Shown: positions 602 to 33,637 of the stretch, in pieces | Numbering within the stretch: the first letter of the stretch is position 1 | Layout of the letters: each line of letters starts with the position of its first letter | IMG/VR virus record: IMGVR_UViG_3300035034_000418 | Coordinates: 1-33,637 of that record | Length of the DNA: 33,637 nt | From: a virus | Reading direction: 5' to 3' (one strand) | Notes under the pieces: model-generated | Told to the model about the DNA's origin: nothing | The model's database searches: none | The model's input: only the letters and a program-made list of their open reading frames with translations | Program-made: the position numbers and the translations under genes

Positions 602-1372
602 TCATTCGAAAAACTGTGACGTTATCGGCTCAACATCATGTTGTGTAATAATCGGATCTACTGTATTAGCATCAGACGGGTAATCAACACACTTATGTTT
701 GAGAGTATTAAGAATACTTTTACGTTCCTTCTTGTTGGTCATAATCCAGAAATATCTATGTTTACCGCTTTCTTTTTTTCTCCAGAAAGTAGCACCAACG
801 GCTTTTTTCAACTTCTCAACGTTATGACTTCCATATCTTTCAGATACCGTTCTTGAGTGAATCCACTTATACGGTTCCTTAGTTAGAGATACAGAGAAGT
901 TAGGCATCAACGCAATAGCAGTTCCTTGATAATAAGCATTAGTTGCTTTATAGATACCGCCTTGATGACCCTGTTCACTATCCGCATAGCTCATGATAAC
1001 CTTAATACGATTATGATTTCTTTTGATATGACGTAATGCGGCTCCTATACAATAACTCTCAATATTTTTTCCGTAAGAGTCCGCAATCCACAGTCGAGTC
1101 AGTTCCCAGACTTCTGATATATCAACCTCTTCACTAAAAGATGCGGCAGCCGATCTACCAACAGGACATCCAAAAACCATACATCCAATTAATTTGTCAT
1201 CCTTTACATCAAAGAAATCATGGTCGGTATCGGATTTGTAAAATACTCCAATCGCCAATGAACACATAGTCCAAGCGTGACTATAATGATTTTTTACAAT
1301 TATATCCTTAGCAACACTCGCTTGAATTTCCTTAATGTATACTTTATCTGTATCTACAAAATCTTCTTCCAT
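602..1372 (-). CDS. mom: Mom-like DNA adenine modification protein (GNAT-type fold)
   Basis: The 256-residue protein matches the pattern of phage Mu Mom-like proteins: NHYSHAW near residue 28, a strand LIGCMVFGCP (61-70), ELTRLWI (90-96), and SYADSEQGHQGGIYKATN (128-145) followed by YYQGT. Mom proteins have an acetyltransferase-like fold and convert adenine in phage DNA to a methylcarbamoyl form that blocks host restriction. That role here is inferred from family resemblance. Translation starts at ATG 1372, with AGGATAAT just upstream; the stop codon of the helicase C-piece lies inside this ribosome binding site, so the two are translationally coupled. The tail from about residue 205 is basic and then acidic and looks family-variable. 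A different GNAT activity is possible. Confidence 0.75.
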   Translation of the reverse strand: MEEDFVDTDKVYIKEIQASVAKDIIVKNHYSHAWTMCSLAIGVFYKSDTDHDFFDVKDDKLIGCMVFGCPVGRSAAASFSEEVDISEVWELTRLWIADSYGKNIESYCIGAALRHIKRNHNRIKVIMSYADSEQGHQGGIYKATNAYYQGTAIALMPNFSVSLTKEPYKWIHSRTVSERYGSHNVEKLKKAVGATFWRKKESGKHRYFWIMTNKKERKSILNTLKHKCVDYPSDANTVDPIITQHDVEPITSQFFE

Positions 1373-1373
1373 A

Positions 1374-1859
1374 TTATCCTAACTCCGATAACGAACTTTT
1401 ACCTACCGACATGCTATGCCACTTTTCTCTTAAATGGTTTCTTACGTCAGTTTCTCCATTCGCAAGTTTCTTTTGAAGTTCTTTTCCTTTTTCGGAATTT
1501 GTTTCATAAAGCTCCAACGAACCACATGAGGTATCAAAAGCAGCGTTATAAGTCAATCCATCAGGACCGAAACGATTTTTAATAACATGAACTCTAGCTG
1601 TATTATTCAACTTGTCTTCCATCTTACGACTTAACGACATAACAAAGTCAGCAGTCATAATCTTACGATATGAATCCGAAATTGAATCAGCTTCAATAAT
1701 ATCTTCTTTAGCAGCTGAATTGTGGGTATAGATATCATTGGCATAAAACATATGTGTATCATCAACTGTAATATCCATAGTTAATTTTTCACCAATGAGT
1801 TCTATCGATTCTATTTCGTCCAGATTGAAATCTGCGGGTATTAGATTATGTTCTTTCAT
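1374..1859 (-). CDS. 41: Replicative DNA helicase, C-terminal piece with split-intein C-part
   Basis: Residues 1-47 are an intein C-fragment: TMDITVDDTHMFYANDIYTHN gives intein blocks F and G, ending in the His-Asn that performs the last splicing step. Ser48 is the first C-extein residue. Residues 48-161 are the C-terminus of a T4 gp41/DnaB-type helicase (MTADFVMSLSRK, then VIKNRFGPDGLTYNAAFD, the arginine-finger region). The partner N-part is at the end of the 2099-3220 gene, after ASQSNR. The insertion site and Int-C resemble the known gp41-8 split intein. The ATG at 1859 overlaps the stop of the decayed endonuclease frame upstream (ATGA). Without splicing this piece lacks both Walker motifs, so it is not a helicase on its own. 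Confidence 0.93.
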   Translation of the reverse strand: MKEHNLIPADFNLDEIESIELIGEKLTMDITVDDTHMFYANDIYTHNSAAKEDIIEADSISDSYRKIMTADFVMSLSRKMEDKLNNTARVHVIKNRFGPDGLTYNAAFDTSCGSLELYETNSEKGKELQKKLANGETDVRNHLREKWHSMSVGKSSLSELG

Positions 1860-2374
1860 ATTTCAGCATGTTCCATTATGTAATTAATACACTGTTTTAA
1901 AGTTTTATGTTTATCTTTATTGTAATTAAATTCCTTGATTCGTAGAACACTATACCCCTTGATTTCAGATACATGTCTCTATGTTTGTCTATTTGTTTCG
2001 TTTCTGTTAATCTATGTCAATAACTTCCATCGAATTCTATAATGACGTTTAAGCACTTGAAGTCAACATAAATAATTTTAGAATCTAACATACCCCATCT
2101 ACTTTTTTTTGGTGAAAAGTTTGTCTCCTGCCTGTAAACCCGTTCTGATGGATTTCATGTTTCCATGTTGTGTGGGAAATCTATGTTCTGCTGATACGTC
2201 TATGTATTTTCCACTTTTCAATTTTATTCTATACGTTGGCTTTGATTCTGATTCAAATATATGAGATACTTTCTTATATCCTTTATGCGTCAAAACCTCA
2301 TCCCCCACAGCCAATTCCTTAGCCCTTATGTGTTTTTTATTTTTTTCATACACGATACTATCTATACAAAAACA
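1719..2374 (-). other. Split intein at helicase site 2 (Int-N 2102-2374, Int-C 1719-1859)
   Basis: Int-N starts at Cys283 of the 2099-3220 product (CFCIDSIVYE, block A), with block B at VSAEHRFPTQHG, and is 91 residues long. Int-C is the first 47 residues of the 1374-1859 product. These are canonical split proportions, like gp41-8. Splicing would join ASQSNR to SAAKED, restoring the helicase just after the Walker B and sensor region. The DNA between the halves is a dead endonuclease gene. Confidence 0.9.
1856..2091 (-). pseudogene. Decayed Vsr-like homing endonuclease between split-intein halves
   Basis: The gap between the two helicase genes reads, from ATG 2091, as a Vsr-like nuclease core: MLDSKIIYVDFK, NVIIEFDGSY, then TGA where Trp is expected, then H and a DKHRDMYLKSRG segment. 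The frame is then lost at a GGGG run; one extra G would restore YSVLRIKEFNYNKDKHKT and the end at 1856. So there is one nonsense and one frameshift mutation in about 78 codons. The IEFDG(x)YWH and GYxVLRI(x)E signatures are those of the endonucleases found between the halves of fractured phage genes. The stop overlaps the start of the next helicase piece. Only the nuclease core remains; no zinc finger or DNA-binding repeats are present. Confidence 0.75.
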
Positions 2375-3220
2375 ACGATTTGATTGACTCGCAGTCCAAC
2401 ATGGGATTTGTAACTCACCTGCGACAGCACGGAGTTCTTCATAAATACCACCAGCTTCAGAATACGAATTAGCATTCTTATCAGCGTGAATAGGTCTTAA
2501 GATGTCAGCATAATCAACAACCAACAAATCAACTTTTTGACTTGTCAATGTTTGAATTCTCTCAACATAGTTTTTCAACGTCAAAGCCGATACCGTCTTA
2601 ATAGGATAGTATTTGATTTTCATGAAACCATCGATGTTTGACAATGCCTTAATAACAGCGTCTTTATTATCTACGATGTTTTGGAAATCAATCCCTGTAA
2701 AGTTACAGTCATATCGGCGACCAACGTATTTTTGACCGAGTTCCAATGTGAAGTGAACCACATTTTTACCTTGTTTCATTGCCTCAACACCTAACTTAGT
2801 TAAGATCCACGAATTGTGACTTAAAATTCCATTTGAGTAATAACAGTGTACGTCTTTTACACTGATGTCATACAATATCTCATCATCACCTTTATTAAAA
2901 TTGGTAATTTTGGTTGTGCCGTTGTCACATTCTACTAACTGACCTTTGGTTAGTTTAGATACATACTCCCACTCCCCATTCGATTTTAATCTATGACTAA
3001 GTGAAGTCTTCAGTGTTTTACCATTTCCAAAATACGTAGTTACTGTAGATTGTTTCTCCGTTCGGAACGCGGTTTGTATCACATTCCACCCAAACGGGGT
3101 CTTAACACACAACTCAAATGGTATATTAAGTTGAGCGTGTTCTTTATTCGGAATTTCCAATGTATCGAATAAATCTTTTATCTTTATAGTTTCTTCTGTA
3201 TTGCGTATTAGTAGTTTCAT
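2099..3220 (-). CDS. 41: Replicative DNA helicase, middle piece flanked by two split-intein parts
   Basis: Three segments are visible in 373 residues. Residues 1-136 form a long intein C-fragment with block B (KTSLSHRLKSNG, 71-82) and blocks F/G (ILYDISVKDVHCYYSN, GILSHN), ending His-Asn. Residues 137-282 are gp41 helicase: SWILTKLG completes the Walker A loop, VDLLVVDYADIL (230-241) is Walker B, and GIYEELRAVAGELQIPCW and TASQSNR are motif 3-like. Residues 283-373 are the N-part of a second intein starting CFCIDS. The protein must therefore be spliced at both ends. After both reactions the helicase would be about 204+146+114 = 464 residues, close to T4 gp41. ATG 3220 overlaps the stop of an endonuclease remnant (ATGA). 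Confidence 0.94.
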   Translation of the reverse strand: MKLLIRNTEETIKIKDLFDTLEIPNKEHAQLNIPFELCVKTPFGWNVIQTAFRTEKQSTVTTYFGNGKTLKTSLSHRLKSNGEWEYVSKLTKGQLVECDNGTTKITNFNKGDDEILYDISVKDVHCYYSNGILSHNSWILTKLGVEAMKQGKNVVHFTLELGQKYVGRRYDCNFTGIDFQNIVDNKDAVIKALSNIDGFMKIKYYPIKTVSALTLKNYVERIQTLTSQKVDLLVVDYADILRPIHADKNANSYSEAGGIYEELRAVAGELQIPCWTASQSNRCFCIDSIVYEKNKKHIRAKELAVGDEVLTHKGYKKVSHIFESESKPTYRIKLKSGKYIDVSAEHRFPTQHGNMKSIRTGLQAGDKLFTKKK

Positions 3221-3576
3221 GTTATAAAATCTTTTATAGTTTGTATTGTGTTTTCTCTATCGTTGTGCCATTCCCATTCCCACCCGACTAGCGTCTTATA
3301 TCCCATTTCATTTAATATCCGTATACGATTTACGTCCCTTTATCACCTAAAATCTTACGAATTTGGGGAAAGTTTTTCCGATTCAAGTCGTGACAGTTCC
3401 CATAATATGTTGTGTATTTGCCAACCATACGCATTGTCATATCCGTCTACGATTCCTGATATGTCGTATTTTTTCATAGGATTTATCCACAATACAACTG
3501 GGTTTCCTATATTTCCCACTACTTCTATACCGAGTTCGGTATATTTAACATCGATCTTCGTATTAGGACCGATACA
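2813..3576 (-). other. Asymmetric split intein in the helicase Walker A loop (site 1)
   Basis: The helicase frame is interrupted after ACAGAGK by Cys205 (CIGPNTKIDVKYTE, block A only) and resumes after GILSHN with SWIL, so the break is inside the P-loop GAGK|S. Blocks B, F and G all lie in the 136-residue C-part. This is the reverse of the usual proportions and matches the class of atypically split inteins with a short N-part. How much of the 73 residues after Cys205 is needed is unclear; the part after about KYTE looks unrelated to an intein and may be insertion debris. Confidence 0.82.
3217..3339 (-). pseudogene. Remnant of a second Vsr-like endonuclease in helicase gap 1
   Basis: In a different frame from both helicase pieces, the gap reads RDVNRIRILNEMGYKTLVGW, then EWEWHNDRENTIQTIKDFIT and a TGA that overlaps the next start codon as ATGA. 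This is the C-terminal part of a Vsr/DUF559-type fold (xxRxxxLNxxGYKxLxxWExEW), the same piece that survives in gap 2. The nuclease core before it is missing or unrecognisable; TAA and TGA codons lie directly upstream in this frame. The stretch 3355-3510, which extends the preceding Int-N frame, may be part of the same decayed insertion. Confidence 0.6.
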
Positions 3577-4188
3577 TTTTCCAGCACCAGCACAAGCAGT
3601 AATAACTCCAAGTTCACCAGCACCTAAACCACCATCCATGATATTATCAAGAACCTCTAAGTTTGTTTTAATTGTATCACGGCAATCATCCTCAAGACGC
3701 TCAGCAATTTCAGTTAGATAATCGTGACCATCATCACGTTCCATACCAGCCTTCAGAGCTTCTTCAACTGTATGTTTTATCTCTTCATATCTTCCTTCCT
3801 TGAGAAAGTCGGCTGACTCCATGATAGCAGCTTTCATAGTCTGATTTTGACAGAATTCTAAGAAAGTCTCTCTGATATATGTTAAGTCAGTGTCCTGTAA
3901 TTTAGCGTGGACAATTTTCAAGTTCTCAACGATAGCTTGTTTCTCAACCACATCGGACACCACATCTAACTTGTGTTTAAATACATCCAACGTTGGCAAA
4001 TCTTTATACTCCGTAAAGTAGTCCAGTGTTGTTCTTAATATCCATTTATGAGACTCATTTTCGAAAAAATCCTCATGTACAATATCCAATATTCGTTCCA
4101 AGAACGACTTGTCTGATAGTATTCCTGCCAAACATTTGTTCTGGAATGCTGATCCAAATTTCTTTAAATTATCTACTTTGTGTTCCAT
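3355..4188 (-). CDS. 41: Replicative DNA helicase, N-terminal piece with split-intein N-part
   Basis: Residues 1-204 are the N-terminal domain and the start of the ATPase domain of a T4 gp41/DnaB-type helicase: an early AFQNKCLAGILSDKSFLERI, then LEVLDNIMDGGLGAGELGVI and the first half of Walker A, ACAGAGK. Cys205 begins the intein N-part (CIGPNTKIDV). The final 60 or so residues (WINPMKKYDISG, YGWQIHNILWELSRLESEK) match nothing I recognise. The leader GTAAATAAACATG closely resembles those of the SSB and RNase H genes and has no strong Shine-Dalgarno. A 16-base perfect palindrome lies 12 bases upstream. The product has only half a P-loop, so it cannot bind ATP normally until trans-spliced. 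Confidence 0.92.
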   Translation of the reverse strand: MEHKVDNLKKFGSAFQNKCLAGILSDKSFLERILDIVHEDFFENESHKWILRTTLDYFTEYKDLPTLDVFKHKLDVVSDVVEKQAIVENLKIVHAKLQDTDLTYIRETFLEFCQNQTMKAAIMESADFLKEGRYEEIKHTVEEALKAGMERDDGHDYLTEIAERLEDDCRDTIKTNLEVLDNIMDGGLGAGELGVITACAGAGKCIGPNTKIDVKYTELGIEVVGNIGNPVVLWINPMKKYDISGIVDGYDNAYGWQIHNILWELSRLESEKLSPNS

Positions 4189-7439: not shown

Positions 7440-8768
7440 TCAATCTTCCAACTCATCGTCGGTGTATTCGAGTTCATCGCTTTCACATTGGGTATGGTCT
7501 TTATATTTCATTATATGAATGTCACATAACTTTTTGTAAAGATCATCTTTTACAACTGTATTAGTTTTCAATAGATTAGTGAAACTAGCCTTAGTCAACT
7601 CATACGTCATACCATCAGAACAGTCGTATTTATATTTAGTTCCTGAACCGCCTACTTCAACAAGATTCTTTAATGCGTCTGGATCTTTTTTCAAAGCATT
7701 CTTTTTCACATCTTGAGTCTGAGCATTCTTTAGAACTTTCGCTTCTTTAAGAGTTTCCAACCAATTTCCATAGTTATCCAACCCACGGTCAAAGAAGATA
7801 TCGAATTCGGAACTTCTCATTGGGGGGCCCATTCGATTCTTGGTAATTTTACATTTAGTCTTAATACCAATAACTCGTTTTTGAGCATCCTTAATCTGAC
7901 CAATCGCTTGTAGTCGCAATCTCAAACTAGCATGGAAGCCAAGAGCTTTACCACCACTTGTTGTATATGGATCACCAAACATTGCGTTCATTTTCACACG
8001 AAGTTGGTTGGTGAAAATTAAACAGATTTGTTGACGAGCAATCATCGTTGTAATCTTTCGTAGAGCCTTACTGATAATGATAGCCTTTGCCGTAGCATAA
8101 CCATCTTTACCGTGTTCCGATTCCATTTCTGTTTTAGTCGATGCAGCAGCAACAGAGTCGATTACGATAGTAACCAATCGATCTTTGTTTGACGAACGAA
8201 CCTTCTGAATAATCATTTCCATGTGTTCGAAGATTTCCTCAACGTGGTCACATGAAATATACAAAAGTTTCGAAATGTCAACACCAATCGCTGTAACGAA
8301 GTTCTTATCAAGAGAAGCTTCAGTATCAATAAAGATAGCAAGTCCACCCTTCTTTTGTGTTTCCGCTAAAGCGTGCATTGCTAACAATGTTTTACCTGAA
8401 TTGTGATTTAACATCCCGTTCCCATAGTAACATTGTTCTGGGTGGTCAACTGCTATATCCACGATATTATAGTCTCCGATGTAATCAACGGAGGTTACTA
8501 CACTGAAAGAATCGTCATCACATTTTATACAGTTAATCGTCGGTTTTAAATCTTTACACTGTAACCATCCGGTGTCTGTGAAAAACAAATGACCATCCGA
8601 AACTTTTATGGATGTCTCATTTTCAAGGGTTACTTTATATGTCTTCTTAATTCCCTTTTCTATATAATCGGATATTGGAGAATATTCACCACCGATGGTT
8701 TTTACTTTCACTGACTTTCCTGTATTCAGCAAATCTTTTACTTCTTTAATTTGTATTTTCATAAACAT
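7440..8768 (-). CDS. uvsX: UvsX recombinase, C-terminal piece with long split-intein C-part
   Basis: Counting from the most upstream ATG (8774), residues 1-125 are an intein C-part with block B-like IKVSDGHLFFTDTG and blocks F/G YNIVDIAVDHPEQCYYGN, GMLNHN. Ser126 starts the RecA core: SGKTLLAMHALAE completes Walker A, GLAIFIDTE follows, LVTIVIDSVAA is Walker B, QLRVKMNAMFGDPYTTSGG is the L2/DNA-binding region, and IKTKCKITKNRMGPP lies in the C-lobe. The acidic tail (ESDELEYTDDELED) is typical of UvsX/RecA. Start choice: AGAGG lies directly against ATG 8774 but 6 bases before ATG 8768, so 8768 fits better; ATG 8762 is also possible. Spliced UvsX would be about 409 residues (T4: about 390). Confidence 0.94.
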   Translation of the reverse strand: MFMKIQIKEVKDLLNTGKSVKVKTIGGEYSPISDYIEKGIKKTYKVTLENETSIKVSDGHLFFTDTGWLQCKDLKPTINCIKCDDDSFSVVTSVDYIGDYNIVDIAVDHPEQCYYGNGMLNHNSGKTLLAMHALAETQKKGGLAIFIDTEASLDKNFVTAIGVDISKLLYISCDHVEEIFEHMEMIIQKVRSSNKDRLVTIVIDSVAAASTKTEMESEHGKDGYATAKAIIISKALRKITTMIARQQICLIFTNQLRVKMNAMFGDPYTTSGGKALGFHASLRLRLQAIGQIKDAQKRVIGIKTKCKITKNRMGPPMRSSEFDIFFDRGLDNYGNWLETLKEAKVLKNAQTQDVKKNALKKDPDALKNLVEVGGSGTKYKYDCSDGMTYELTKASFTNLLKTNTVVKDDLYKKLCDIHIMKYKDHTQCESDELEYTDDELED

Positions 8769-8825
8769 CACCATCCTCTATAATTATTCCACAATTACAT
8801 CGATTATTGTATCTTCCGTGACACA
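8400..8825 (-). other. Highly asymmetric split intein in the UvsX Walker A loop
   Basis: Int-N is only 13 residues, CVTEDTIIDVIVE (8787-8825), then TAA. Int-C (8400 to 8768 or 8774) holds all other intein blocks and ends LNHN. Splicing joins GLEH to SGKT, giving a perfect P-loop GxxxxGKT. Only about 10-15 bases separate the stop from the restart, and no endonuclease lies between. The restart has its own AGAGG. Confidence 0.9.
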
Positions 8826-9095
8826 ATGTTCCAATCCTGTAATTTCTGTAATACGACCTGCTGGATATCCACCCACTGGTCTATTTGCCATTATAATATC
8901 CAACTGATCGTTTCCACTTGGAATCCAATCGGATATGTTTGAAGGGTCATCTTCATTATCATCACCAAATACGAAAGCTACGTTGCCTCCGTCTTTATTG
9001 GCTTTGTTTAACATTTCTGCTATTTCATCAACCAAACCATCACGGTCATCAGCAGTCATATCGACCTCTACTTTTTTCGAGCCATTCTTTGCCAT
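8784..9095 (-). CDS. uvsX: UvsX recombinase, N-terminal piece with 13-residue split-intein N-part
   Basis: Residues 1-90 are the N-terminus of a RecA/UvsX protein. A helical, acidic start (DGLVDEIAEMLNKANKDGG) is followed by SDWIPSGNDQLDIIMA, PVGGYPAGRITEITGLEH, which leads into the Walker A loop. At residue 91 the intein begins with CVTEDTIIDVIVE and the gene ends. The leader AAGGAAATAAATGG combines a Shine-Dalgarno with the AAATAAA element seen before the SSB and helicase genes. The SSB terminator lies upstream at 9131-9158, so this gene must have its own promoter or rely on readthrough. It has no ATPase activity by itself because the GKT lies in the other piece. Confidence 0.93.
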   Translation of the reverse strand: MAKNGSKKVEVDMTADDRDGLVDEIAEMLNKANKDGGNVAFVFGDDNEDDPSNISDWIPSGNDQLDIIMANRPVGGYPAGRITEITGLEHCVTEDTIIDVIVE

Positions 9096-11418: not shown

Positions 11419-12807
11419 TTAAAAGTTGAATTTTTCCAACTGTTTATAATTATCACCCAACTTAACTTTTATCGGATATTTGTCATTATTCGTCATAATG
11501 TGTTTTATATCCATCAAAGTTTCTTGTCCGTCGTCTCTATGAAAATCAAACAACATGCTATCGTAAGTATACAATACCATCTTTGATTTTTTGCCTTTCA
11601 TATACTGCAAGACTCTATATGCGGTAGATAATGCCACCTCAGTTTCAAACGATTGTAATAAGAAATTAAAAACCTTATTGGCATCAGCAGACTCACCAAG
11701 CATCTGTTTGTTTATTTTACGATTGTATATTGGAGTTTCGATATATCCGTTCTCTTTATAAAAATTCCACCGCTGATCAATAAATTCTTGAACCTTTTTG
11801 AAGTATGGAATATCTTTATACTCTGGTACTATACGTCCGTATAGTTGTTTGAACGTAAGGTTCTTCGATTGTTTTATTTGGATATTTGATAATGAGTCGG
11901 TATTGAAATAATATCGTCCAAGGTATGCGTATATGTCTACGTCAGCAGTAAGATTGTATCTCACCAAATTGGCTATCAAGTGGGGGTGAAATGCTGTAAA
12001 ATCCATATCCACCAATTTACCATCTTTCCCATGACGGCTAATAAATGACATTCTAACCGAACCGTCGTGGCTCAACGCAGCATAATTCACACCGCCAAAT
12101 GAATTTGATGGCCTTCCTGTACTTGTGAACATGCTGTAATTTGTATACACCATATCATCATCAGAAACCAAATGTTTTCGATGGTCTCCAAAGTTGTCTA
12201 AAAAGATGTTTCGATCAACCTTTAAACCACTCTTTTCGATTTCGGTCAACACATATGTTAACTCAGTGTTCATCTTAGTAAACGACTCCTCTTTTAGTTC
12301 TCGTTCATGTTTCGAAACCAAGTCTTCCGCAAAGTTGACTAGAAGCTGGAACTTCTCTAGGTGTTTATTGATTGGTATGATTCTGTTTAGTATATTACAC
12401 TTTGGAAACTGTGAGTGGTAGAATCTATGAGCGGAGGTCGGTAACACCGAATCATCAATTATCTCATTCTGTATTAGGTATGATAGAATGTTAATGTCAA
12501 TCGTATCGTCGATGGCCGTCAAATGCCAGAATGTTTTCTTATCAATAACGAACTTTCGTTTTGCTACGGTGTTAATAATGTCACATACTTCTTTTAAAGA
12601 AACTGACGATTGTGCGTCAACGTGGTTGAATGGTATTATAAAAACGTTTTTTGAAGTCAATCCTTTTGCGAACATGACGCACGGTGTATTGACTACGGGA
12701 TGACTTCTCACATCTCCAGCAACCACATATAAAAACACATCTTCTTCTCTGAGTTTGGTTCTCAGAGACTTTAGATCGTCTTGACCTTCTATAAAAAATG
12801 TATTCAC
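11419..12807 (-). CDS. polA: Family A DNA polymerase-like protein with atypical catalytic motifs
   Basis: The 462-residue protein follows the PolA layout. Residues 20-160 resemble a degenerate 3'-5' exonuclease domain (VVAGDVRSHPVVNTPCVMFA). ELTYVLTEIEKSGLKVDR (182-199) is the start of the polymerase domain, followed by MFTSTGRPSN (226-235). Motif A is VDMDFTAFHPHLIA with Asp269; motif B is KQSKNLTFKQLYGR (312-325); motif C is YTYDSMLFDF with Asp416. Both catalytic aspartates are kept, but motif A lacks the usual SQxELR and motif C has YDS in place of HDE. It is also short. It could be an active specialised polymerase, a repair polymerase or a structural relic. Translation appears to start at GTG 12807. 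T4-like phages normally use a family B polymerase, which is not in this window. Confidence 0.8.
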   Translation of the reverse strand: MNTFFIEGQDDLKSLRTKLREEDVFLYVVAGDVRSHPVVNTPCVMFAKGLTSKNVFIIPFNHVDAQSSVSLKEVCDIINTVAKRKFVIDKKTFWHLTAIDDTIDINILSYLIQNEIIDDSVLPTSAHRFYHSQFPKCNILNRIIPINKHLEKFQLLVNFAEDLVSKHERELKEESFTKMNTELTYVLTEIEKSGLKVDRNIFLDNFGDHRKHLVSDDDMVYTNYSMFTSTGRPSNSFGGVNYAALSHDGSVRMSFISRHGKDGKLVDMDFTAFHPHLIANLVRYNLTADVDIYAYLGRYYFNTDSLSNIQIKQSKNLTFKQLYGRIVPEYKDIPYFKKVQEFIDQRWNFYKENGYIETPIYNRKINKQMLGESADANKVFNFLLQSFETEVALSTAYRVLQYMKGKKSKMVLYTYDSMLFDFHRDDGQETLMDIKHIMTNNDKYPIKVKLGDNYKQLEKFNF

Positions 12808-26795: not shown

Positions 26796-28448
26796 TTAGA
26801 GATTTCTATTATAACTCCTCCATATATACTTTATATTCCCACAGTCATATATTTTATCATAGCCGTTTAACTGCATATTCTCATACTCTGACAACTCAGT
26901 GTGAAATACTTTCAATTTCTTATGCAAAATCGATTTTCTAAAATTGAAACGGTGGTGTCTTATATTATAACCATTCTTGTAATACCAATAGTTTACCTGA
27001 GTTAAATGTGAAAAGACGAAACCCATCTTATCATACACCGATTGGTGAACAGCGGTAAACCTTCTATCTGCATATGTAACCACTGTGTTCGGTGAGTTGG
27101 TTCTAATGAAATGTTTAAATAATTTACTGGCGATTCCAATTATATTTGTTTTTGTAGCAAACCTCATCAATTCGAATTCTGATGGTGATGGGTGACTCCC
27201 CAGTGATATTCTACCACTTCCAAATGTCATAACCGCTACCAATTCGTCATTGTAATACGCGCCATATCGTATTGAACTCTTATCGTTTCCTTGTATATGA
27301 TGTGATTCTAAGAAGTCCCGTTTTGTATTAGGTGAAATTTCTTTAATTATACACTTTCTGGCATAAATCTTGTAATTCACACACCCCAATTTATGTCTCA
27401 GCTTTTCTTTTATAACATCTTTCTTGTTAATCCATTCATCTTCAAATATATGAATTAACTGAACACCCATCTCTTCACATAATTCGGTCTTTTGTAAATG
27501 ATATAGTTTATCGACTGATGAATATGAGTGATAATATAGTGAGTTGTATTCAATCGCTATTTTCTTATTCTCTATATATATGTCCAATTCTCGGTCTTTA
27601 ATTACGTCTCTACGGTGTTGAGTGAGTTGATTCGGCGGCATAATCTCTTCTAAGAATTCTACAATCTCATTCTCACATACCGACCCTTTATTTAAGGGAT
27701 AACAATTTAGACATCTAGGAAGATGTCCACCGTCAATGTGATCTTTAAATTCACAGTCACATCTTAAACATTTAAACTTGTAATGATTCCTTCGGTCGGT
27801 TGTGATGTATTCATCAAACTCGAATAATGGAACTACCTTTAAATTCAATTTATGAACGGTCTGTAGCTTATTATAAAAACTCTTTTTATATGATTGATGC
27901 TTTCGATCCTGAATTTCTCTGACCTGAGACGGATGAGTTACTCCGTAGTTGTTCGTATAGTAGTTACATATCTTTTGTTTGATTTCATCAGATGCAAACA
28001 CATTATCGACTCCATAACGTTCGTTTACAGTATCCTTTACAGCTTTTTTGGTAGATTCCAACTGTGACATGTTATCCACTCCGAATTTATCTTTTATATG
28101 TTGTTTGAACTCATCGGTTTTAAAATATGAATCCGTCCCGTAATGATCAATACAACTCTGTTTAATCTTTTTCTTAACATGATCAGATTTAGATACGTTA
28201 TCCACTCCGTATTTTTTTATACATGTAGATTTGGCTTTGTTTGGATTTACGAAACTACCATTACCGTAGCGTTCGAGCTTTGTTTGTTGTATCTTCGACA
28301 ACCTATCCACATCGTTTGCTGTATATTGGGATGAACATTTACCGTTACAAAACTTCTGCGCTCGTGATATCAAGCTTTCAAATTCACTGCCACAGTGTTG
28401 ACAATGTTGAGTGTGCCAATATTTTGGATTTTTGTCATTCGTAACCAT
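26796..28448 (-). CDS. Large Vsr-like homing endonuclease (copy 1)
   Basis: This 550-residue protein has an N-terminal zinc finger (CQHCGSEFE, FCNGKCSS). A series of about five DNA-binding repeats of the form (I/V)xxRYGVDNVxxSDxxKxK follows (about 45-180), with a second zinc finger (CLRCDCEF, CLNC) at 227-249. The Vsr-type nuclease core is RELDIYIENKKIAIEYNSLYY (286-306), then LIHIFEDEW. A conserved C-terminal domain follows (SHHIQGNDKSSIRYGAYYND, VVTYADRRFTA, YDKIYDCGNIKYIWR). Free-standing homing endonucleases cut phage genomes that lack them and spread by repair. It lies directly after the tail tube gene. AGGTTGAG sits before ATG 28448, and reading is intact, so it is probably functional. 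Confidence 0.86.
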   Translation of the reverse strand: MVTNDKNPKYWHTQHCQHCGSEFESLISRAQKFCNGKCSSQYTANDVDRLSKIQQTKLERYGNGSFVNPNKAKSTCIKKYGVDNVSKSDHVKKKIKQSCIDHYGTDSYFKTDEFKQHIKDKFGVDNMSQLESTKKAVKDTVNERYGVDNVFASDEIKQKICNYYTNNYGVTHPSQVREIQDRKHQSYKKSFYNKLQTVHKLNLKVVPLFEFDEYITTDRRNHYKFKCLRCDCEFKDHIDGGHLPRCLNCYPLNKGSVCENEIVEFLEEIMPPNQLTQHRRDVIKDRELDIYIENKKIAIEYNSLYYHSYSSVDKLYHLQKTELCEEMGVQLIHIFEDEWINKKDVIKEKLRHKLGCVNYKIYARKCIIKEISPNTKRDFLESHHIQGNDKSSIRYGAYYNDELVAVMTFGSGRISLGSHPSPSEFELMRFATKTNIIGIASKLFKHFIRTNSPNTVVTYADRRFTAVHQSVYDKMGFVFSHLTQVNYWYYKNGYNIRHHRFNFRKSILHKKLKVFHTELSEYENMQLNGYDKIYDCGNIKYIWRSYNRNL

Positions 28449-29222: not shown

Positions 29223-30719
29223 ATGGGAAGGCCAAGAAAAAATCCACTGACAATTAAAAAGATATGTGAACATTGTAATAAGGAATTTGAAATTTCATAT
29301 AACAAGAAGAATCAGAGATTTTGCAACAAACACTGTTCGAACTCATGCAATACAACTAAAGATAAGATACGGAAATCTCAAAATATTACATTTGATAAAA
29401 AATACGGCGGACATCCAATGACAACTGACAATGTAAAAAAGAATTTTCAGTCCGCTATGGAATCTAAATATGGAGTAAAACATGCTCTTCAAAACTCCAA
29501 CATACTCAAAACCATGAAATCCACTAAAATTGAGAGATATGGAGATGAGAATTACAACAACGAAGAGAAAAGAAAACAAACCTGTCTACAGAGATATGAC
29601 GTTGATAACATAAGAAAATGTGAGTGGTATAAACCTATATTGGCAGACCACCGAAGAAATAACCATTATGAGTATCTATTAAACTATTTCAAAGAGAGAA
29701 AATTAACTCTTCTTACTACACCGCAAGATTATAATGGTATCTGGTCAGGCGACAAATATGAATTTTGTTGTGATGATTGTAATAATAGATTCGTGAGGCC
29801 GTTATATTCTATTGCAAGCATAGAATGTGACGTATGTAATCCCAGCCCAAGATATAAAGAAGAGAACTCCTTACATACATTTCTATTAGAAACGTGTAAC
29901 GATTTAATAATAGAACGTAGAAACCGAATAATACTGAAAGGTCAAGAGTTGGATTTTTTAATACACAAAAAAAGATTAGCAATTGAGTATAATGGGTTAT
30001 ACTGGCATTCAGAATCTAGAGGAAAAAATAAAATATATCATTTAAATAAAACCGTTCGGAGTTTAACTATGGGATATAATTTAATACATATATTTGATTA
30101 TGAATGGAATACAAAACAGGAAATTGTAAAGAGTATAATTCGTTCAAAAATTGGTGAGAAGGTAGAATTGTTATACGCCAGAAATTTCAAAGTTAAACAA
30201 GTCGAATCTAACATTTCAAATTCATTCTTAATCAACAATCATATACAAGGAAAAGACAACGCTCCTATAAGATATGGGTTGTTTAACAAACATGATGAAT
30301 TAATGTCATTGATGACATTCCGCAAGTCTAGGTTTGATAAATCTGTAGAATATGAGTTGAGTCGTTTTTGTAATATATTAAACGTTTCTATCACAGGTGG
30401 AGCAAGTAAATTATATTCCCATTTTGTTAAGAATCATAATCCCAACAGCGTAATATCATATTCCGATAGAAGATATTTCGATGGAAATTTATATAACGTA
30501 TTAGGATTCGATTTTATCAACAATACTGCGCCTGGATTCCATTTTGTTTCGCCGGATTATAAAACACTATACAATTGGCAACAGTTCCAAAAACATATGT
30601 TGAAAGATAAACTAACAGGGTTCGATCCAAATTTGACCGCATGGGAGAATATGAAAAACCACGGCTTTGACCGAATATGGGATTGTGGAAATTCCAAATG
30701 GATATGGAAGTCTACTTAA
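29223..30719 (+). CDS. Large Vsr-like homing endonuclease (copy 2), plus strand
   Basis: The 498-residue protein is the same family as the 26796-28448 product: zinc finger (CEHCNKEFE, FCNKHCSN), repeats (IERYGDENYNN, LQRYDVDNIRK), a second zinc finger (CCDDCNNRF, CDVC) and the nuclease core KGQELDFLIHKKRLAIEYNG (about 239-258) with LYWHSES and LIHIFDYEW. The C-terminal domain (NNHIQGKDNAPIRYGLF, VISYSDRRYFDG, FDRIWDCGNSKWIWKS) is closely alike. It is inserted between the tail tube gene and the 73-residue gene, on the opposite strand. Its stop overlaps the stop of the convergent gene over TTAA (30716-30719). TTGACA at 29163 with a weak -10 about 17-18 bases on is a possible promoter. Confidence 0.86.
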   Translation: MGRPRKNPLTIKKICEHCNKEFEISYNKKNQRFCNKHCSNSCNTTKDKIRKSQNITFDKKYGGHPMTTDNVKKNFQSAMESKYGVKHALQNSNILKTMKSTKIERYGDENYNNEEKRKQTCLQRYDVDNIRKCEWYKPILADHRRNNHYEYLLNYFKERKLTLLTTPQDYNGIWSGDKYEFCCDDCNNRFVRPLYSIASIECDVCNPSPRYKEENSLHTFLLETCNDLIIERRNRIILKGQELDFLIHKKRLAIEYNGLYWHSESRGKNKIYHLNKTVRSLTMGYNLIHIFDYEWNTKQEIVKSIIRSKIGEKVELLYARNFKVKQVESNISNSFLINNHIQGKDNAPIRYGLFNKHDELMSLMTFRKSRFDKSVEYELSRFCNILNVSITGGASKLYSHFVKNHNPNSVISYSDRRYFDGNLYNVLGFDFINNTAPGFHFVSPDYKTLYNWQQFQKHMLKDKLTGFDPNLTAWENMKNHGFDRIWDCGNSKWIWKST

Positions 30720-32837: not shown

Positions 32838-32847
32838 TATAAATATC
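32838..32847 (-). promoter_or_regulatory. GATATTTATA motif before the 83-aa gene
   Basis: The minus strand reads TTTGATATTTATAACCATG, with the motif 3 bases before the start. It overlaps the stop of the endonuclease gene (32846), so the gene would be expressed apart from the endonuclease. Confidence 0.4.
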
Positions 32848-33637
32848 AAACAGTTGGAGATTCCCATATAAATTTTAAATTCCCACAATCCCAGATTCTA
32901 TCATATCCGTTTAACTGCATATTTTGCCACTCAGTTAAGGTTGGGTCAAAATTTTCTAACTTGTCTTTTAACTTGTGTTTTTGAAAGTTAACTCTGTTGA
33001 GTATTTGGGAGTTGGTAATGTAATGATACGACGGGGGTGTATTTCCAACAAATTCAAATCCCAGGTTTAAGTAAACCCCTCCATTAAAATATCTCATGTC
33101 TGAGTAACTTACAATTGATATCGGATCATTGTGTTTAACAAAATATTTAAACAGTTTCGATGCTCCCCCAACTATTCGTGTGTTGAGGATGTTACAATAT
33201 CTACTCATTTCATATTGAACCTTCTTATCAAATCTTGATTTACAGAAAGTCATAACAGATACTAATTTCCCATCCATAAAAAGTCCGATTCGTGTAGATG
33301 ATCTATCAGACCCCTGAATATGGTTTGCGTTCAAAAATGCAGAACATATACTAACAGGTATTTCCTTTATAATACATTTTCTTGCATAAACTATATTATC
33401 ACATGAGCTGAATCGGTTACGTAATATGCTTTTTACTATTTCCGTTTTGTCAAACCATTCGTTTTCAAATACCTGTATCAATGTGATGTTCTTCTCAATA
33501 CACATATCCCGTTTCGATAAATGGTATTGTTTGTCTTTACCACCGGAGATTTCCGAATGCCAATATAATCCATGATATTCCACTCCCAACTTCAATTGTG
33601 GATCGAATACGTCGATTTCCATCTTATTATCTAACGG
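32846..33637 (-). CDS. Vsr-like homing endonuclease (copy 3), 5' end outside window
   Basis: The reading frame is open to the window edge; the visible part begins with the nuclease core LDNKMEIDVFDPQLKLGVEY, then HGLYWHSEIS and LIQVFENEW. It keeps the full C-terminal domain (NANHIQGSDRSSTRIGLFMD, SIVSYSDMRYFNGG, YDRIWDCGNLKFIWE). The N-terminal zinc finger and repeats seen in the other two copies should lie beyond 33637. It is closer to copy 2 than copy 1 by eye (VGGASKLFKYFVKH versus TGGASKLYSHFVKN). The gene is upstream of the 83-residue gene and reads through to its leader. Confidence 0.85.
   Translation of the reverse strand, partial: PLDNKMEIDVFDPQLKLGVEYHGLYWHSEISGGKDKQYHLSKRDMCIEKNITLIQVFENEWFDKTEIVKSILRNRFSSCDNIVYARKCIIKEIPVSICSAFLNANHIQGSDRSSTRIGLFMDGKLVSVMTFCKSRFDKKVQYEMSRYCNILNTRIVGGASKLFKYFVKHNDPISIVSYSDMRYFNGGVYLNLGFEFVGNTPPSYHYITNSQILNRVNFQKHKLKDKLENFDPTLTEWQNMQLNGYDRIWDCGNLKFIWESPTV

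Follow-up and report, generated by a model that had tools for sequence, protein, structure and literature searches.

Split inteins and phage genes fractured by them are already known, and both types of splice site dealt with here have known cousins. Dassa et al. reportedly described, in 2009, fractured genes in which split inteins accompany a free-standing endonuclease related to Vsr, and the dnaE gene of Trichodesmium is a replication gene with several inteins, only one of which is known to be split. Natural short N-terminal intein parts (IntN) measure 15-37 amino acids (aa) in one source, which gives VidaL 16 aa, PolB16 15 aa and AceL TerL 25 aa (PMC13014065), and three-segment tandem trans-splicing, or multi-part assembly with orthogonal split inteins, is engineered in two others (PMC12707363; PMC7090010). 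Here we analyse a metagenome-derived virus record of 33,637 nucleotides (nt) (IMG/VR record IMGVR_UViG_3300035034_000418, one strand, a genome fragment; the whole stretch is called the window below) that carries a gp41-type replicative helicase in three genes, each of which begins or ends - or, in the middle gene, both begins and ends - with part of a split intein. Going by its sequence, it is very probable that natural tandem trans-splicing builds the helicase from these three genes and that two separate homing cassettes were the origin of this state. Our literature search, which covered few subscription journals, found no report of two different split inteins breaking one natural gene; a prior description may exist.

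On the minus strand of the window, the helicase occupies three open reading frames (ORFs) at 4188..3355 (277 aa), 3220..2099 (373 aa) and 1859..1374 (161 aa), which were dissected at Cys1 and after the terminal His-Asn. The first consists of a 204-aa extein 1 ending with the GAGK of Walker A (3577..4188, minus strand) and a 73-aa IntN1 tail that starts at Cys1 with CIGPNTKIDVKY and continues into an insert reading ..LWINPMKKY..GWQIHNILWEL (3358..3576, minus strand; assigned by dissection and from relatives). By the same means, the middle ORF is resolved into a 136-aa C-terminal intein part, IntC1, which opens the gene and ends NGILSHN (2813..3220, minus strand), a 146-aa extein 2, SWILTK...ASQSNR (2375..2812, minus strand; also covered by the phrog_19 profile), and a 91-aa IntN2, which starts CFCIDS and closes the gene (2102..2374, minus strand). 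The third ORF begins with a 47-aa IntC2 ending IYTHN (1719..1859, minus strand), 67% identical to its counterpart at a related locus (L002; loci other than the window are given by such numbers), and goes on with a 114-aa extein 3, SAAKED... (1377..1718, minus strand; phrog_19 profile). While the middle ORF passes the Pfam Intein_splicing cut-off (3.5e-10), IntC2 alone stays under it (0.018). Break 1 falls inside the Walker A loop, between GAGK and S, and break 2 directly after ASQSNR; Cys1, the terminal His-Asn and Ser+1 are present at both, and at both sites the N-part with its nucleophile at position 1 and the C-part ending in His-Asn are on separate ORFs.

That the three exteins belong to one helicase is suggested by phrog_19 (DnaB-like replicative helicase), which matches the window at profile positions 156-366 (extein 1, 2.5e-24; Pfam DnaB gives 0.0033, under cut-off), 367-507 and 515-588. 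Matches 1 and 2 abut exactly, match 3 begins six residues into extein 3, and the profile search found no further phrog_19 match elsewhere in the window. Aligned with solved replicative helicases, the joined exteins (204 + 146 + 114 = 464 aa without intein parts) match 8due best, with an expectation value (E) of 2.3e-22 over query residues 20-402 of 464, neither junction being gapped; 8dtp, a chain of the same kind as 8due, is 475 aa long, and we take both to be T4 gp41. Walker A and Walker B (LLVVDYAD, read from the sequence) as well as an N domain and a RecA-like C domain extend across the joined pieces. As judged from these alignments, the flanks at both breaks rejoin to an intact conserved DnaB/gp41-type replicative helicase. 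An earlier note on this DNA had put a gp41-type helicase in three genes, broken at the same two places with complete intein pairs and intact Cys1, His-Asn and Ser+1; it had also described a middle gene with a C-part at its start and an N-part at its end, and an extein total of about 464 residues, near gp41 length. Our dissection, the three-piece phrog_19 match and the 8due alignment bear all this out, and aligning the joined exteins to gp41, as that note had suggested, revealed no missing stretch at either junction.

How common this state is among relatives was assessed by several scans. The first, with the middle gene as query, confirmed 154 relatives, and among the best 80 analysed both junctions were uninterrupted at these codons in 71, with 7 interrupted at site 1 only, 1 at site 2 only and 1 (L002) at both. 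Further scans with alignments of IntC1, IntN2 and IntN1 yielded 54, 55 and 28 loci, respectively, on partly shared contigs; one other scan of the analysis retained the best 80 of 429. Deduplication left 78 loci having exteins 1 and 2, window included: 32 are empty at both sites, 21 are split at site 1 only, 7 at site 2 only and 8 at both (the window, L002, L091, L094, L096, L105, L143 and L158), the rest being 3 with a contiguous intein at site 1 and a split one at site 2, 2 contiguous at site 1 only and 5 whose site 2 is incomplete (IntN2 present in 3, absent in 2). The count excludes L092, L201 and L210, whose sequences were too short, L108, which lacks extein 1, L197 and L217, which lack extein 2, and intein-only matches in other genes (L116, L117, L119, L121-L134, L163, L164, L166-L189). 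On the extein tree, the eight doubly split rows need 8 label changes, 7 of them forced by supported branches, and cluster no more than with shuffled labels; this scatter suggests that the double split arose more than once, the exact number of gains not being claimed from a quick tree with several long branches, L096 among them. Long open frames at L158 and L165 were dismissed, in-frame stops having been found after IntN2. Mixed states also occur: in L135 and L142, gp41 combines a 369-aa contiguous insertion at Walker A with a split site-2 intein, and in L097 the site-1 intein is contiguous (187 aa) and site 2 is split with a 402-aa ORF between the halves, for which re-fusion after endonuclease loss is possible.

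The two intein pairs differ in type. At site 2 the pair is canonical (91 + 47 aa), and IntN2 matches the solved gp41-1 intein 6qaz by sequence (1.7e-13), from which a Hint fold may be predicted. At site 1, a large 136-aa C-part is combined with an N-part neither canonical nor minimal, which measures 33-74 aa in split relatives and 73 aa in the window. The earlier note had assumed a short N-part at site 1 and a normal one at site 2; that the split positions are unlike at the two sites stands, whereas the site-1 N-part, at 73 aa, misses the published short class of 15-37 aa. Most site-1 N-parts share a stretch like GNSGK.Y.LWINPF.KY...LFGWQ..N, and so do three loci in which the site-1 intein is contiguous in one ORF (L207, 204 aa; L115, 193 aa; L097, 187 aa). 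AlphaFold2 modelled the contiguous L207 intein from 39 alignment rows with a predicted local distance difference test score of 95.6 and a predicted template modelling score of 0.88. The model has strands at 26-31, 36-39 and 42-45 and a helix at 46-62 (a beta-beta-beta-alpha insert), then a weaker block at 61-70 (mean 75) around which, in the alignment, the N-parts end and the C-parts begin, and a strand at 71-81. Its remainder is a Hint fold with Z up to 20.0 to solved inteins and, against VidaL 6vgv, Z 19.4 at a root-mean-square deviation of 1.9 over 137/204 residues. These Foldseek and VIA-align matches concern the whole L207 model as a Hint fold rather than the insert by itself, and the fold at site 1 is modelled on this relative, not on the window's own pair. 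Going by the model, the site-1 N-part usually holds a folded insert of about 45 residues, which in most loci would account for its length of 33-74 aa. We considered whether the IntN1 tail past the first strand is a mere endonuclease remnant and ruled this out, since the tail is conserved in split relatives that have a separate endonuclease-like ORF, since L207, L115 and L097 retain it in contiguous form and since the L207 fold is confident. Close relatives of the intein parts were not found in 50,697 phage records, neither for IntC1 (24 matching records with E no higher than 0.01, the best at 7e-5) nor for IntN2 (35 records, best listed 3e-7), and a pattern search of genome contigs returned 590 matches, none of them confirmed. 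The IntN2 search also matched Shigella phage ESh36 at its DNA primase/helicase gene.

In relatives, an endonuclease-like ORF is situated between the intein halves. All five such ORFs tested (from L002, L143 and L007) match phrog_22677, listed as of unknown function; Pfam REase_MTES_1575 and DUF559 matches are mostly under cut-off, and two ORFs match phrog_13076 'endonuclease'. Our reading is that they are Vsr-like homing endonucleases. Among the eight doubly split loci, long ORFs of this kind are found at both sites in four (site 1/site 2: L002 241/396 aa, L091 242/349, L094 316/403, L143 301/348), at site 1 only in two (L158, 301 aa; L105, 287 aa) and at neither in L096 and the window. The window has no free-standing endonuclease gene between the halves, only C-terminal scraps at both sites: at 3221..3354 (minus strand) about 35-40 residues from near the C-terminal end of a site-1 ORF (tblastn with the L002 ORF, E 6e-5), and at 1860..2098 (minus strand) the C-terminal ~80 residues of a site-2 ORF in two frames with one stop (tblastn with the L143 ORF, E 4.6e-17), both E-values depending on a manually set database size. 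The window may hence be described as a descendant of the fractured-gene arrangement, not a full member, and remnants in both gaps point to an origin by homing cassettes.

Such cassettes can be seen as presence or absence at the same codon in close relatives, the window's own nearest rows being only ~66% identical, with no near-identical empty partner among them. Ten pairs of occupied and empty loci were compared, and in four of them identity on both sides is 96% or higher: L005 against L016 and against L018 (96.9% over 3.9 kilobases (kb) upstream and 99.1% over 5.0 kb downstream of a 1,376-nt site-1 cassette), L004/L047, and L003/L074 (flanks 99.6% and 99.0% identical; a 650-nt cassette, its endonuclease gone). 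Junction codons are recoded with the peptide GSGK-S left unchanged; in one example GGT AGT GGA AAA before and AGT after the junction become GGC TCG GGC AAA and TCT. The site-1 Ser+1 codon is TCN in 32/32 occupied Ser loci (4 more have Thr) and AGY in 28/37 empty ones (5 more have Thr), a contrast that scores 5.7 to 0 with 3.3 undecided on independent tree pairs (median p 0.03, range 0.016-0.125). Two changes separate TCN from AGY, which makes co-conversion along with the cassette the straightforward explanation. At L056, near 5009, an uninterrupted gp41 has junction codons like those of occupied L006 (GGCTCGGGCAAA, then TCC across the junction); a scar of clean cassette loss or an endonuclease-resistant allele are both possible. 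Judging from these relatives, a cassette of IntN, free-standing endonuclease and IntC would have homed into an intact gp41, co-converting the flanking codons, and two cassettes would have entered the gene separately. In this phage the endonucleases would then have decayed and the inteins stayed intact, we propose because the helicase now depends on them.

Signs of function come from the residues that splicing requires. Cys1 and the final His-Asn are retained in 28/28 split site-1 and 17/17 split site-2 relatives, scored without the window and at site 1 also without L158 and L118 (no IntN1 match at threshold). The site-2 +1 residue is Ser in 18/18 occupied loci, in keeping with what the chemistry of splicing calls for, and in 55 empty ones Ala in 35, Ser in 11, Gly in 4, Met in 4 and Thr in 1; five of the 78 rows, three of which have IntN2 but no matched extein 3, are left out of this count. 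In the window itself, both endonucleases have decayed while the three helicase ORFs and four intein parts stay open, which suggests that the parts retained are those needed for splicing.

If so, assembly may be envisaged as follows. IntN1 of the N gene would pair with IntC1 of the middle gene and IntN2 of the middle gene with IntC2 of the C gene, so that two ligations would turn 204 + 146 + 114 residues into one helicase of 464. Before site-1 splicing the P-loop would be divided between two polypeptides, and until then no helicase activity is expected. The order IntC-extein-IntN yields circles in engineered and in vivo cyclisation systems, and the middle protein could likewise circularise itself if the two inteins were not orthogonal. 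Three features may confer orthogonality. Geometrically, IntN1 with IntC2 would lack the middle of the fold and IntN2 with IntC1 would have it twice; the charges tend to oppose; and the site-specific IntN1 insert might act as an address tag. As to charge, in the eight doubly split loci IntN1 is negative in 8/8, IntC2 negative in 8/8, IntN2 positive in 8/8 and IntC1 positive in 6/8; over the split loci scored, most doubly split ones included, site 1 has a negative IntN in 27/28 and a positive IntC in 23/28, and site 2 gives 17/17 both ways. Orthogonality of the two inteins is nonetheless, to our minds, the least certain step.

Several observations weigh against our view. IntC1 has a charge of 0 in the window and -3 in L158; the idea that charge polarity evolved for the double split had to be rejected, singly split loci showing the same trend; and the insert, our address-tag candidate, is shortened in L095 and L096. 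As regards homing, in the other 6/10 occupied/empty pairs one side or both have diverged further (75-95%), 9/37 empty site-1 Ser alleles also use TCN, and the L002/L045 pair has no codon difference at site 1. For Ser at site 2, independent pairs point in the same direction, but at 3.5 to 0 (median p 0.25) this underpowered test falls short of significance. More generally, the case is built on sequence and models. Finally, a published large C-part cross-reacts with foreign short N-parts (PMC3443213), which bears directly on orthogonality. The alternative that survives best, although we consider it improbable, is that the inteins do cross-react, with part of the middle polypeptide lost as a circle and slow splicing acting as dosage or timing control of the helicase. 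It can draw on this published cross-reactivity and on the gene order shared with in vivo cyclisation, yet the unlike split positions and the mostly opposite charge polarity speak against it, as does the recurrence of the double state.

Somewhat less probable still is that gp41, broken by two homing elements, is decaying here as a pseudogene, with an intact helicase working elsewhere. Both window endonucleases are wrecked, and a record of only 33.6 kb leaves room in the phage genome for such a helicase, one further point that counts against us. However, the three helicase ORFs and four intein parts are open and keep their end residues right beside endonuclease remnants with stops and frame changes. 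Moreover, an intact gp41 elsewhere, which the earlier note had named as the finding that would overturn its reading, was found neither in the window nor on the contigs examined for the seven remaining doubly split loci, each with phrog_19 in exactly three pieces (L105 via its twins L106 and L107); the scope of this result is limited to these contigs and the window, all of them genome fragments. Quite unlikely is a third option, in which the pieces act as separate non-covalent subunits with the intein parts as passengers. Enzymes whose split parts function by association do exist, but here the break falls inside the Walker A loop, each piece carries bulky intein parts, and the site-2 +1 Ser and terminal His-Asn needed by splicing are kept in all occupied relatives scored. 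Least of all do we credit an assembly or sequencing error, conceivable for a single contig of metagenomic consensus, given that other contigs show both breaks again, likewise with intein parts, and that the window's parts, only 63% (IntC1), 55% (IntN2) and 43% (IntN1) identical to those of L002, are hence not copies.

The window contains a third candidate split intein, in UvsX, which - like the endonuclease remnants in both gp41 gaps - was absent from the earlier note. UvsX is broken at Walker A, between GLEH and SGKT. A 90-aa extein 1 is followed by a 13-aa IntN, CVTEDTIIDVIVE (8787..9095, ORF span 8784..9095, minus strand), and a 125-aa IntC by a 319-aa extein 2, SGKTLL.. (7443..8774, ORF span 7440..8774, minus strand), both assigned by dissection and from relatives. 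Two in-frame stops come after the 13-aa N-part, and the C-part ORF begins 9 nt past the first. The contigs of L002 and L008 likewise have 13-aa N-parts at the same place (there numbered L203 and L213), and the intein is contiguous (137 aa) in L207 and L208; the site is empty in 188/211 loci with a UvsX match (not deduplicated), 17/211 not being resolved. Among natural split inteins, no characterised N-part is shorter than the 15 aa of PolB16 according to PMC10189870, and the UvsX N-part, at 13 aa, lies below this; the artificially split M86 has 11 (PMC13014065). No report of a split intein in UvsX was found in the same literature search. Should all three inteins work, this phage would need at least three splicing events for two replication proteins, gp41 twice and UvsX once. 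For the wider picture, in which tandem trans-splicing recurs naturally in a phage clade, two independent homing cassettes lie at its origin, orthogonality is built in (through geometry, inverted charge and the folded IntN1 insert as address tag) and endonuclease decay locks the phage into at least three splicing dependencies, we see the chances as evenly balanced.

As for other genes of the window, a Mom-like DNA modification protein is encoded directly after gp41 (602..1372, minus strand; Pfam Mom 1.4e-45, phrog_1384), and a DNA-polymerase-like ORF of only 462 aa (11419..12807, minus strand) matches phrog_17 over its C-terminal part. Three homing-endonuclease ORFs belong to phrog_3339 (26796..28448, 29223..30719 and 32846..33637). 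The third resembles the Mom family in its C-terminal part (Pfam 1.9e-4, under cut-off; phrog_1384 4.6e-6), and the other two share the Mom-like region by eye, so a nuclease-acyltransferase fusion is possible.

Taken together, evolution appears to have made, more than once and in a replication gene, a scheme known from engineering. The path from mobile element to a protein encoded by several genes can be traced through the series of alleles, which comprises empty, contiguous, singly and doubly split and endonuclease-less ones. In addition, the locus supplies intein pairs predicted not to cross-react and two unusual N-parts, the 13-aa one of UvsX and the gp41 site-1 one with its folded insert.

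In relation to known systems, what our loci share with the fractured genes attributed to Dassa et al. (2009) is a conserved phage enzyme gene with an endonuclease ORF between its halves, as found at both sites in L002, L091, L094 and L143; here, by contrast, one gene is broken twice by different split inteins, and in the window the endonucleases are reduced to remnants. With gp41-1 and gp41-8 the site-2 pair has in common its canonical long-N, short-C geometry, the similarity to gp41-1 (6qaz) being distant; site 2, after SQSNR and before Ser, is presumably the gp41-8 position. Like the short-N split inteins VidaL, PolB16 and AceL TerL, site 1 and UvsX have a long C-part and are split in the first part of the fold, but the site-1 N-part measures 33-74 aa and that of UvsX 13 aa. 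Trichodesmium dnaE is likewise a replication gene with multiple inteins, whereas the helicase here has two split ones. Finally, engineered tandem trans-splicing follows the same order - N-extein/IntN-a, IntC-a/middle/IntN-b, IntC-b/C-extein - in laboratory constructs, which here is the arrangement of a natural gene.

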